Source: Planctomycetota bacterium (GTDB lineage Bacteria; Planctomycetota; Phycisphaerae; Phycisphaerales; SM1A02). Taken from it: a stretch of 36,621 nucleotides of DNA. Of the stretch, positions 11,397 through 35,497 are shown in pieces. The translations under genes were made by a program, and so were the position numbers. Location: positions 38,420-75,040 of the forward strand of contig QWPV01000006.1 in the NCBI GenBank assembly GCA_003671055.1, given 5' to 3'. The notes under the pieces are model-generated. The model searched no databases, was not told where the DNA came from, and was given only the letters and a program-made list of their open reading frames with translations. The stretch's first letter is position 1. Each line of letters opens with the position of its first letter.

Positions 11397-11469
11397 TGAT
11401 TGCGCTGGGATTCGAACCCAGGACCTAGCGGTTAAAAGCCGCTTGCTCTACCAGCTGAGCTACGCAACC
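11397..11469 (-). tRNA. tRNA-Lys, anticodon UUU
   Basis: The minus strand folds into a full cloverleaf of 73 nt. Acceptor arm GGTTGCG pairs with CGCAATC (one G-U), the D arm is GCTC/GAGC, the anticodon stem is AGCGG/CCGCT with loop CTTTTAA, and the T arm is CTGGG-TTCGAAT-CCCAG. The discriminator base is A. The anticodon TTT reads AAA and AAG lysine codons. CCA is not encoded. It lies just upstream of the SNF2 gene on the same strand. Confidence 0.97.
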
Positions 11470-32652: not shown

Positions 32653-33846
32653 ATGCAGCACTTCGATGCCATCGTCCTCGGCCTTGGCGGAATTGGATCG
32701 TCCGCGCTCGCGTCCATCGCAGACAGAGGCACGCGTGTCCTTGGCGTGGATCGATTTGAACCACCACACGCAATGGGAAGTTCACACGGCGGAAGTCGTG
32801 TGATTCGATTGGCATATTTCGAGCACGAGGGATATGTGCCGCTTTTGCGCGAAGCGTTCGAAGCATTCGATCGACTCGCACGCGATGCAGGCGTCGCACT
32901 CATTCAACGAGTCGGATTGCTGCAAGGCGGCATCGCGAACAATGAGATTGTGTCGGGGACCATTCGCGCTGCGAGGACGCACGATCTTCGCGTCGATGCG
33001 ATGAGCGGCGCAGAAGCGACGAGGAAGTTCAACGCATTCGATCTGCCCGCGGCATGGGAGCTCGTGTACGAACACGACGCAGGATTCATTCGACCAGAAG
33101 AGACGATTCGCGTGCAGCTCGAGCGTGCGCGCAATGCAGGCGCTGAGATTCGCACCAACACAGAAGTCACGCACTGGATCAATCACAACAACGGAGTTCG
33201 CGTGCATTTTGCCGACGGCAGCACGGTGGACACATCGACGCTCGTCGTGTGCGGTGGAGCGTGGGCGCCGAAGTTGTTAGCGCATGACGAGAGTTTGCGC
33301 GCATTCAATCTCACGCCGACGCAGCAGATAATCGTGTGGCTCGGCGCAGGCGCCAAATCCGCAATCGCTTCAGCATTGAGCACGAACGCGATGCCCGTGT
33401 GGCTCTTCGACGATGGTGAAGGTGGCGCGCCGTACGGAGTTCCAGCGTTTGAAGGCATGGGCGCACCGCATGGGCTCAAGATTGGAATTCACCAGCACGG
33501 GGGAAGCGCGGTTGATCCTGCGTCGATGACGCGCAGTGTGTCGGATGCTGCGGCTGAAAGCGTGCGTCAGCGCGTAGGGCAGTTTGTGAAGGTTGCGCGT
33601 GATGCTGAGGTCGTCGCGAGCGCATCGTGCTTGTATACGGAGTCGATGGACGGCCACTTCATCGTCGATTCACTCTCCCCAGAGTCACCGAATGTCATTG
33701 TCGCGACAGCGTGTAACGGTCACGCATTTAAGTTTGTCCCTGTTCTTGGGCGCTTACTCGCTGATGCGGTAGCGGATCGCGCAAGTCTTCAATCGGGCCC
33801 GGCAGCGTTTCTCACGCGCGGCGTTCGGTCAGCCCTGCAGCGCTAG
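32653..33846 (+). CDS. FAD-dependent amino-acid oxidase of the monomeric sarcosine oxidase / SolA type
   Basis: This 397-aa flavoenzyme oxidises N-methylated amino acids such as sarcosine or N-methyltryptophan, with hydrogen peroxide as by-product. The dinucleotide-binding LGLGGIGSSALA is at residues 9-20. SSHGGSRVIRLAYFEHEGYVPL, CNGHAFKFVPVLGR and SCLYTESMDGHFIVD are SolA/MSOX signatures. Cys326 of the last motif would bind FAD covalently. There is no signal peptide. It starts 5 bp after the metalloprotease stop, so it is cotranscribed. That pairing of a secreted protease and a cytosolic oxidase is unusual and its meaning is unknown. The exact substrate cannot be told from sequence. Confidence 0.9.
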   Translation: MQHFDAIVLGLGGIGSSALASIADRGTRVLGVDRFEPPHAMGSSHGGSRVIRLAYFEHEGYVPLLREAFEAFDRLARDAGVALIQRVGLLQGGIANNEIVSGTIRAARTHDLRVDAMSGAEATRKFNAFDLPAAWELVYEHDAGFIRPEETIRVQLERARNAGAEIRTNTEVTHWINHNNGVRVHFADGSTVDTSTLVVCGGAWAPKLLAHDESLRAFNLTPTQQIIVWLGAGAKSAIASALSTNAMPVWLFDDGEGGAPYGVPAFEGMGAPHGLKIGIHQHGGSAVDPASMTRSVSDAAAESVRQRVGQFVKVARDAEVVASASCLYTESMDGHFIVDSLSPESPNVIVATACNGHAFKFVPVLGRLLADAVADRASLQSGPAAFLTRGVRSALQR

Positions 33847-33861
33847 GGAAAGCTCGTGACC

Positions 33862-33902
33862 AAATAAAAAGGGCCACTGTCTGATCGGCTAGACAGTAGC
33901 CC
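33862..33902 (-). terminator. Rho-independent terminator on the minus strand
   Basis: The stem 33871-33882 pairs with 33891-33902 (12 bp with one mismatch) over the 8-nt loop GATCGGCT. Read on the minus strand it is followed by TTTTTATTT. There is no U-tract on the plus side, so it serves minus-strand transcription: the ThuA gene 150 bp upstream, or a small RNA between. It also lies just past the convergent oxidase gene. Confidence 0.8.
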
Positions 33903-33951
33903 CATGGGGGAAAAGATCTTGTTTGGTGTCGGCTCGCTTTCGCTTTCCGAC
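33862..33951 (-). ncRNA. candidate small RNA with two hairpins and a terminator
   Basis: On the minus strand, TATATT (33958-33963) could be a -10 element. Downstream, GTCGG (33947-33951) pairs with CCGAC (33928-33932) around an inner GC-GAAA-GC turn. A palindromic CCCCATGGGG follows at 33900-33909, then a 12-bp hairpin with one mismatch (33871-33902) and TTTTTATTT. This gives a transcript of about 90 nt ending in a proper terminator. Upstream lies an AT-rich tract (34007-34030) that could be an UP element. The -35 box is poor. It matches no RNA family I know. The alternative is that this is only the 3' UTR and terminator of the ThuA gene. Confidence 0.35.
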
Positions 33952-34053
33952 AAAAGAAATATAGCGGGACTATTTGCAAAAGGGAAGAAGCAGTTCGCCA
34001 CTAAGTGACAATTTTTCAAAATTTTTCACAGATTCTGCCCGGCTCCCATGCCG

Positions 34054-34893
34054 TTAATTCAGCGGTGTGAGAGGAGTTGTGGGGGCAGTTGCGGATGGCA
34101 TCGACTCGCCCGCAGCCCAACGAATTCCCGCCTCGATGTGCGCACGAAAGAGCGGCTCCGCGTAGCTCTCCTTTGTGTGCCCACCACCGGTGTACCACGA
34201 GCGTCCGCCCTCAAACTCTTGGAACCATGCGATGGGGTGATCGCCATTCATGTCGTCGCCTTCGACAGTGCTGTCATCGAGCGAGGCAAGCACATGCACG
34301 CGAGCGCGAGGGTTGTCTTTGTAGACATACCACTCATCAAATCGCGTCCATCGATCTGGCAGCATCGCGGTGGAGGGGTGGTCTTTTTTCTCAACTATCA
34401 CGGTCGATTCTTGTGGTTTCGGATGCGTGAGAAAGTACGCACCGACAAGTTTTCCGTACCACGGCCATTCGTGTTCCGTGTCGGCAGCCGCATGAATGCC
34501 AGCAAATCCGCCGCCAGCATGCACGAATTTCTCAAGGGCAGCTTCTTGCGCGGGATCGAGAATGTTCCCTGTGGTGGAGAGGAACACGATCGCCTTGTAT
34601 CGGGCGAGATTTTCTGCGGTGAAGACAGATGCATCCTCCGTCGCATCGATTTCATATCGTGCGCTGAGGAGTTCGCGAATGCACGCGATCCCAGTGGGGA
34701 TCGAGTCGTGTCGAAAACTAGCCGTCTTTGAGAAAACAAGGAGTCGAGGCAGCGCGGTTGCCGGTGGAACTGTCGGCGCAGTCGCGGCGGGTTTGCTCTG
34801 AGGGACAGACCCCTGCGCAAAGGCTGCGATGAGCGCAGCACCAATGAGGAGGCAGGCAATACTCCGAAGCGACCGAGAAGGTGTTACCTGCAT
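34054..34893 (-). CDS. secreted ThuA-domain protein
   Basis: This 279-aa protein has a signal peptide (RSIACLLIGAALIAAFAQG) and then the ThuA class-I-amidotransferase-like fold. LLVFSKTASFRHDSIPTG opens the domain; FLSTTGNIL, GGGFAGIHAAADTEHEWPWYGKLVGAYF, and the late GGRSWYTGGGHTKESYAEP are typical of secreted ThuA proteins common in planctomycetes. ThuA was first linked to trehalose use, but the enzyme activity of these secreted forms is unclear and probably concerns sugars. The frame continues 74 codons upstream, but the signal peptide fixes the start at the ATG at 34893. It is divergent from the response regulator, sharing a 172-bp region with a strong inverted repeat. Confidence 0.88.
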   Translation of the reverse strand: MQVTPSRSLRSIACLLIGAALIAAFAQGSVPQSKPAATAPTVPPATALPRLLVFSKTASFRHDSIPTGIACIRELLSARYEIDATEDASVFTAENLARYKAIVFLSTTGNILDPAQEAALEKFVHAGGGFAGIHAAADTEHEWPWYGKLVGAYFLTHPKPQESTVIVEKKDHPSTAMLPDRWTRFDEWYVYKDNPRARVHVLASLDDSTVEGDDMNGDHPIAWFQEFEGGRSWYTGGGHTKESYAEPLFRAHIEAGIRWAAGESMPSATAPTTPLTPLN

Positions 34894-34940
34894 AGCGAGA
34901 ACTCTACAGCCACTTACTCGAATCGGAAGTGAAGGCCTTG

Positions 34941-34987
34941 AATGGGGCAGGTTCCCCATTTGTTCAACCGTGAATGGGGAACTTGCC
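34941..34987. promoter_or_regulatory. operator-like inverted repeat between thuA-like and response-regulator genes
   Basis: GGCAGGTTCCCCATT (34946-34960) is matched by AATGGGGAACTTGCC (34973-34987) with one mismatch in 15, over a 12-nt spacer. A third AATGGGG half-site lies at 34941-34947. The site is 48 bp from the ThuA start and 78 bp from the response-regulator start, so it could control both. It could also form a hairpin in either leader. Confidence 0.55.
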
Positions 34988-35065
34988 GCCTCAGCCGCAG
35001 CCTCATGTATCTTCGACCGCAGAACGCGCCTTTCGTGGTGCGAGTCGACACGTGGTTGAGGAGCC

Positions 35066-35497
35066 ATGATGGATCCGATGAGAGAACGCGATAATTTTGA
35101 CGCGCTATGCGACATGCCACGAGCGAGGCTCGGTGAGCGCGTGTTGTTCGTGGACGATGAACGCGTCGTTCGCGAGGTGGCACAGGCACTCCTCCACGAA
35201 CTCGGTTACGCCGTGGTAGTCGCAGAAAGTGCTGAAGCAGCGTTAAAGATTCTTGAGGTCGATGCTGCATTCTCGCTGCTCATCACAGATCTCATGATGC
35301 CGGGCATGTATGGCATCGCACTTGCGAAGGTGGTGCGACGGCGCTGGCCAACGCTCGGCGTGGTGTGTTGCACTGGCTACGGCGATGCGTCCGATCAAGC
35401 GCGCGCCGAGGCAGCAGGAATTCTGATCCTCGTTCGCAAGCCCGTCGCACTTGAAGCACTCGCGCGCATCGTTCGCAACGCGATTGATCGGGTTTGA
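35066..35497 (+). CDS. single-domain response regulator (CheY-like receiver)
   Basis: This 143-aa protein is one receiver domain without an output domain. Visible residues are the acidic pair Asp30-Asp31 (FVDDERVV), the phospho-acceptor Asp75 (LLITDLMMPGM), Thr103 (CTGYGD) and Lys125 (RKPV). The style (TDLMMPG, CTGYGDA) resembles receiver domains attached to hybrid histidine kinases. It would pass a phosphate or act by protein contact in the cytosol. No histidine kinase lies in the window. The start is one of two adjacent ATGs at 35066/35069. Its stop abuts, without gap, the stop of the convergent DUF1569 gene. Confidence 0.92.
   Translation: MMDPMRERDNFDALCDMPRARLGERVLFVDDERVVREVAQALLHELGYAVVVAESAEAALKILEVDAAFSLLITDLMMPGMYGIALAKVVRRRWPTLGVVCCTGYGDASDQARAEAAGILILVRKPVALEALARIVRNAIDRV

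Follow-up and report, generated by a model that had tools for sequence, protein, structure and literature searches.

The gap between two convergent genes, encoding an FAD-dependent oxidoreductase and a ThuA-domain protein, probably (at about 0.6) encodes a free-standing, trans-acting small RNA of ~87 nt with its own promoter and terminator, in which the stretch GAUCUUUUCCCCCAU would serve as an antisense seed working without Hfq, and which is probably a paralogue of a wider set of RNAs, types P, Q and R. The gap lies in the window, the whole analysed stretch of 36,621 nucleotides of a planctomycete genome. The existence of the gene, its conservation, its structure and, in one lineage, its independence from thuA read-through are supported by comparison among genomes, and it looks like a real, uncatalogued small RNA gene, new though ordinary in kind.

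Organisation and folding of the gap

All the minus-strand motifs listed by an earlier, sequence-only reading (A/T-rich tract, TATATT, hairpin, palindrome, and terminator with U-tract) are present in the gap, where the order on that strand is A/T-rich tract, TATATT, hairpin, CCAAACAAGAUCUUUUCCCCCAU, terminator stem and T5. The start of the predicted RNA was placed from the -10 box and its end from the terminator. The features are as follows:

32653..33846, plus strand: flanking gene of an FAD-dependent oxidoreductase (DAO, PF01266), from Pfam
34054..35115, minus strand: flanking ThuA-domain gene (PF06283), from Pfam
34010..34029, minus strand: A/T-rich tract upstream of TATATT, a putative UP element, from sequence
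33963-33958, minus strand: -10 promoter-like box TATATT, from sequence; TANNNT is conserved in homologues
33951 to 33865, minus strand: predicted small RNA, ~87 nt, start at 33950-33952, end near 33865
33952-33927, minus strand: 5' hairpin TGTCGG...CCGACA, from the fold, with the inner turn GCGAAAGC
33926-33904, minus strand: CCAAACAAGAUCUUUUCCCCCAU, between the 5' hairpin and the terminator, from sequence
33904..33918, minus strand: single-stranded stretch GAUCUUUUCCCCCAU, the presumed seed, from conservation and fold
33909-33900, minus strand: palindrome CCCCATGGGG, from sequence
33902-33871, minus strand: intrinsic terminator with a 12-pair stem, from sequence, terminator scan and covariation
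33890-33883, minus strand: terminator loop AGCCGAUC, 8 nt, invariant in the alignment of 17
33870-33866, minus strand: terminator U tract (T5), from sequence

The intrinsic terminator was recovered independently by a terminator scan of the region, and a sigma-70 promoter rule including the -35 element found no match there. A/T tracts are also visible upstream of the congeners' copies and of some other homologues. The palindrome CCCCATGGGG, previously listed as an element of its own, exists but is not a separate one: its GGGG forms the foot of the terminator stem, and the single-stranded stretch ends in its CCCC. The invariant linker GAUC (window 33915-33918) and the invariant loop GAUC (33883-33886) are self-complementary and may pair with each other as a short pseudoknot or between two molecules as a dimer contact.

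On the minus strand, the 192-nt stretch has a better fold than its shuffled versions (z -2.96, 1 of 200 shuffles as good), and the signal of the plus strand is weaker (z -1.93, 7 of 200). Since some seed bases pair, in the 192-nt fold, with bases that precede the transcript, the RNA was folded alone, and the predicted 87-nt molecule then reached a z of -4.97 with none of 200 shuffles as good. Folded alone, the RNA forms two hairpins joined by an unpaired stretch; 16 of the 17 homologues have a minimum-energy fold that leaves all 15 nt of the seed unpaired.

Homologues and gene context

A search of 101 genomes with the gap DNA matched the genome itself, all three congeners (84-96% identity over 52-116 query bases) and one genome of another genus (E 6e-17), with one further weak match (E 0.07) left uncounted. 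The 18-mer GATCTTTTCCCCCATGGG, with at most one mismatch, was present in 18 of the 181 genomes of the family, its reversed-pattern control in none. These matches comprised all four genomes of the own genus (g1), 13 of the 16 of genus g62, and one genome of g52 that had no terminator. The 17 homologues used here are those of g1 (4) and g62 (13); loci L065 and L066, one-mismatch matches without a terminator, were left out. The three g62 genomes that do not carry the 18-mer (G141, G150 and G151) gave no match either, at E up to 0.1, with R1, a covariance model built from the 17 homologues. Applied to 400 genomes of the order, R1 matched 35, with the 17 homologues scoring above 84 bits and 18 others at 19.6-37.8 bits; the weaker matches, 13 of which were inspected, were mostly plain terminators or unclear. 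At one locus in genus g26 (L084 of G084, ~1501-1572; 37.8 bits with R1), a terminator shares the loop AAGCCGATCT with that of the window RNA and is preceded by a different sequence, and no DAO or ThuA match was found in the DNA examined around it.

All 17 homologues adjoin the same gene pair, with both genes present in 14 and one in the three whose available DNA ends nearby. At 26 other ThuA loci, the ~1.5 kb examined contained no DAO gene. In one genome (G140), the RNA is inverted relative to the oxidase/ThuA gene pair, so that read-through from thuA is not needed for its transcription.

An exact 19-mer scan of named genomes returned 18 contigs, mostly labelled as planctomycete and several with lake names (e.g. 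Baikal) in their titles. Three of them were inspected (L097, L098 and L101): the Thermogutta and Roseovarius contigs had no terminator, and the contig labelled Limnohabitans carried the full RNA. The same exact 19-mer had no match in viral contigs.

Conserved structure and predicted promoter

The strongest evidence for a functional RNA comes from the terminator stem, whose 12 pairs are standard-paired in 204 of 204 cells of the 17-sequence alignment (A5). Four pairs show double changes, amounting to 19 double-changed cells against a shuffled mean of 4.4; none of 500 shuffles was as high in percent paired, double-changed cells or covariation score (n=17), while the number of double-changed pairs was equalled by 27 of 500 and the number of pair types by 193 of 500. 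Sliding the partners out of register destroys this pairing signal. The innermost pair takes the forms AU, UA, CG and GC across the homologues. Compensatory stem changes in homologous gaps, proposed beforehand as a test of the RNA, were thus found, in the terminator.

The GAUCUUUUCCCCCAU stretch and the 8-nt loop AGCCGAUC are invariant in 17 of 17 sequences while both stems change. The 5' stem keeps about the same place, its sequence being mostly unrelated and changed almost every time; the inner GAAA turn that had been pointed out is present in the 5' hairpin of the window but is not generally conserved among homologues. A TANNNT box ends 1-12 nt, most often 6 nt, before the best 5' stem in all 17; when the upstream sequences were shuffled, over 100 rounds, 2.7 of 17 had one on average and 7 at most. 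For the window genome (G000) the TANNNT scoring settled on a different and weaker stem, not the one in the predicted fold; measured to the folded stem, the distance from the end of the box is 5 nt. Box, 5' stem, exposed middle and terminator together make the pattern expected where a gene has a promoter of its own, a 5' end closed by pairing and an intrinsic terminator.

Two readings would dispense with such a gene. The same bases hold, on the plus strand, a 34-codon frame (33904-34008) that had been noted before and is indeed open from ATG to TGA, but it is not conserved: its 34 residues significantly match only themselves, no homologous peptide was found in the three congeners, though parts of their DNA are 84-96% identical, there is no Pfam match, and the compensatory stem changes fit an RNA. 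A small protein is therefore hardly credible, and the frame is probably a by-product of the RNA sequence. The element might instead belong to the thuA mRNA, as a terminator or 3'-UTR element that is possibly also processed to a short RNA: thuA is on the same strand, ~100 nt upstream, and its transcripts could stop at this terminator. This is very improbable given the -10 box before the 5' stem in every homologue and the inverted G140 copy, which is not downstream of thuA on its strand. The free-standing small RNA suggested by the sequence-only reading from the succession of promoter, folded body and terminator is thus the better supported one, with the 17 homologues, their 17 boxes and the G140 inversion all in its favour.

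Comparison with known RNA families

A scan of the whole window against Rfam (4227 families) brought only a tRNA to its gathering score; a tRNA gene lies at window 11397-11469 on the minus strand. At E up to 10, the gap itself gave three matches, all far below gathering. A repeat or mobile element was also considered and rejected: the own genome has one full copy of the gap, five other matches are short and weak (E at least 0.5), and viral contigs had no exact match to the 19-mer.

The open-access literature searched, a scope that leaves most subscription papers and all preprints outside, gave no description of this RNA family or of the string UCUUUCUCCCC. The Rhodopirellula-1 motif (Weinberg et al. 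2010) is tabulated as a candidate RNA motif of Proteobacteria and Planctomycetes, with no Rfam accession in the table (PMC2864571); it is likewise a planctomycete candidate RNA, known here by its table entry only, and the Rfam scan may not cover it.

A wider family of related build

The order also contains RNAs in which an almost unchanging UCUUUCUCCCCUCC is followed directly by a covarying terminator, and these occur in four of its five sampled families. A laxer R1 search of 39 genomes gave more weak matches, two of them with TTGATCTTTCTCCCCTCC just before the terminator. This 18-mer, with up to two mismatches, was found in 83 of the 181 genomes of the family and 36 of its 45 genera, with none for the control, although some matches are due to chance (e.g. 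L143 and L144). The exact 14-mer TCTTTCTCCCCTCC was present in 50 of 397 genomes of the class (control 1 of 397), namely in 42 of 98 within the order (26 of 33 in family f1, 3 of 3 in f4, 4 of 4 in f5, 8 of 44 in f2 and 1 of 14 in f6) and in 8 of 299 outside it. Some of the matches within the order are also chance: the f6 match (L211) has no terminator, and among the eight in f2 only four have one, of which three passed the strict test and L255 was recognised by eye. Outside the order, eleven loci representing seven of the eight genomes were examined, and all failed the terminator test. One genome outside the order (G541) has 11 copies of TCTTTCTCCCCTCC, and after each of the five inspected (e.g. 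L260-L264) comes an inverted-type GGAGGGG repeat, which makes these copies look like a repeat element rather than family members.

Among the 115 distinct sites at loci L141-L273, 79 have an intrinsic terminator that begins no more than a few bases from the seed, a feature found at 19 of 4600 random positions; the 36 sites failing the strict test include some that are visibly members (e.g. L213, L155, L171 and L255) and others that are not (e.g. L238-L240 and L260-L270). Types P and Q were modelled apart because a joint alignment put their stems two columns out of register. The type P terminators (11 sequences) are paired in 97.9% of 143 cells, with double changes at 5 pairs, and those of type Q (14 sequences) in 100% of 196 cells, with double changes at 6 pairs; these counts leave out L242 and L246 (type R) as well as P and Q members with other loop lengths, and L228 is not in the alignment. 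No shuffle of 500 reached the covariation score of either type; the number of pair types was not above that of the shuffles (92 and 397 of 500). 5' hairpins occur in some P, Q and R members, by eye or by fold.

The gene neighbourhoods were inspected by eye at several loci. Type P lies downstream of a glycosyltransferase-like gene in f1, f2 and f4 (an identity with Pfam support for one fragment only, at E 0.005, below the cut-off) or of a gene resembling gatA in f5, and types Q (f1) and R (f4) are found near the gene of an ABC-transporter ATPase. Besides the window RNA, the window genome has a type P copy (L213, G000:C23:9975-10038, minus strand) and a type Q copy (L298, G000:C2:33784-33850, plus strand, 51 bits), and in its genus type Q has a TATTAT box upstream in 4 of 4 cases. 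In another genome (G039, family f4), locus L243 is a third copy of the 14-mer, followed by a different hairpin, in addition to types P and R.

Eight loci of the wider family were scanned against Rfam, and no family reached its gathering score. A type P and a type Q region, searched at E up to 1, gave three weak matches, all on the strand opposite the RNA. Among these, RcsR1 (E 0.026, in the type Q region) was rejected, being on the opposite strand and far below its gathering score.

Relationship to types P, Q and R

The window RNA shares with types P, Q and R an exposed pyrimidine stretch directly followed by the terminator. Its seed reads GAUCUUUUCCCCCAU and theirs AUCUUUCUCCCCUCC, with 10 of 15 positions in common (ungapped, by eye), whereas its terminator is different, with the loop AGCCGAUC, and it stands in another gene neighbourhood. 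The exact family seed TCTTTCTCCCCTCC is absent from the window type, which reads TCTTTTCCCCCATG instead.

Two models were compared, R2 from type P and R3 from type Q only. Over 487.8 kb, of which 398 kb came from elsewhere in the own genome and which included the 17 window-type loci, R3 placed 14 of the 17 within its best 17 matches, and 10 of them outscored every match outside the family; the window's own copy, at 14.0 bits (E 0.2), was just below one control palindrome at 15.0 bits. R2 found 2 of the 17. Over whole genomes, at E up to 0.1, R3 listed the window-type locus in none of the 11 searched genomes carrying one. A third genus, g30, has RNAs in which a window-like seed, CUUUUCCCCCAUG, precedes another terminator, and its loci L090 and L093 were found by neither model.

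Possible mode of action

We infer transcription of the RNA, its paralogy, its pairing with mRNAs and the direction of regulation. On the minus strand, transcription would start from the RNA's own TATATT promoter and stop at its own intrinsic terminator. The exposed GAUCUUUUCCCCCAU would then act as a seed and pair with purine-rich GGGGGAAAAGAUC-like stretches, or parts of them, in other mRNAs, the expected sites being GGGGGAAAAG-like for the window type and GGAGGGGAGAAAGA-like for types P and Q. Pairing would proceed without Hfq, and its most likely outcome would be repression. Hfq (PF17209) was found in none of 15 genomes of the order, in a search whose control was positive in 5 of 14 known genomes.

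Antisense pairing is preferred because an exposed C/U-rich stretch beside the terminator recalls RsaE/RoxS and RNAIII. The window RNA is ~87 nt long and has no conserved frame, whereas RNAIII is large, has several domains and codes for a peptide as well. The part of the literature consulted describes UCCC seed motifs of the Staphylococcus aureus RNAIII acting against G-rich Shine-Dalgarno sequences (PMC9217828), and C-rich stretches of RsaE/RoxS in Firmicutes pairing with G-rich sequences, including Shine-Dalgarno regions (PMC9217828, PMC5419742). The window RNA is likewise a small RNA with a C-rich stretch, but it belongs to another phylum, has only one such stretch and reached no Rfam gathering score. 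RsaE/RoxS pair at Shine-Dalgarno regions, whereas the window seed did not favour the start regions of 314 genes called by crude means, which is a weak test.

Self matches aside, four genomes contain only five perfect complements of the seed core, and none of these lies convincingly at a start codon. Hexamers complementary to the seed are not enriched before starts, which were guessed by a crude rule, and Shine-Dalgarno sites look rare in the portion of the genome examined. Duplex energies, capped at zero, were no better at the 314 start regions than those of shuffled seeds, 56 (window type), 22 (P) and 23 (Q) of 100 being as good, again with crude starts and as a weak test. In the window and the stretches L274-L293 of its genome, TACACT is over-represented 4-18 nt before guessed starts (10 in 315 genes), and this excess and the scarcity of Shine-Dalgarno motifs suggest that the genome has many leaderless mRNAs.

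These negative target tests would also suit an RNA that is real and free-standing but whose pyrimidine stretch is a protein-binding site, making it a titrating or scaffold RNA, and the 14-nt stretch of the wider family, kept while its surroundings change, suits a single fixed partner. This reading is a serious rival, though the less likely one, as the window type differs at 5 of 15 seed positions (by eye) and is yet invariant in its own two genera, which suits changed pairing partners, and no candidate protein is known. The window RNA and the UCUUUCUCCCCUCC family, both then being real small RNAs, may be analogues rather than homologues, a quite possible reading, though short of an even chance, which agrees with the partly common seed, the differing terminators and the modest or absent cross-model scores. 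Against it stand the same build and the ungapped similarity of the seeds, the R3 ranking of 14 of the 17 window-type loci in the top 17 and the window-like seed of the g30 RNAs. On balance, the window RNA is somewhat favoured to be a divergent paralogue of the P, Q and R family.

Biological meaning

A further-reaching and rather doubtful proposal places the window RNA in a core, Hfq-independent small RNA system of the order. Ancestral P and Q/R copies would have stayed near the same genes across families, with a nearly constant pyrimidine seed of 14-15 nt, and the window type would be a branch whose seed was re-coded and whose targets changed with it. If this were true, a new regulator would have arisen by seed editing of an otherwise frozen RNA.

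The interest of the window RNA goes beyond its kind, since it opened the way to a wider RNA family in bacteria from which few small RNAs are known; one review table counts 8 distinct sRNAs in Planctomycetes, Verrucomicrobia and Chlamydiae combined and 345 in Proteobacteria. The sequences are specified closely enough for a search of existing metatranscriptomes. A family extending over several families of the order, with a nearly invariant 14-nt core and in genomes in which no Hfq was found, would give a handle on post-transcriptional control in these bacteria.
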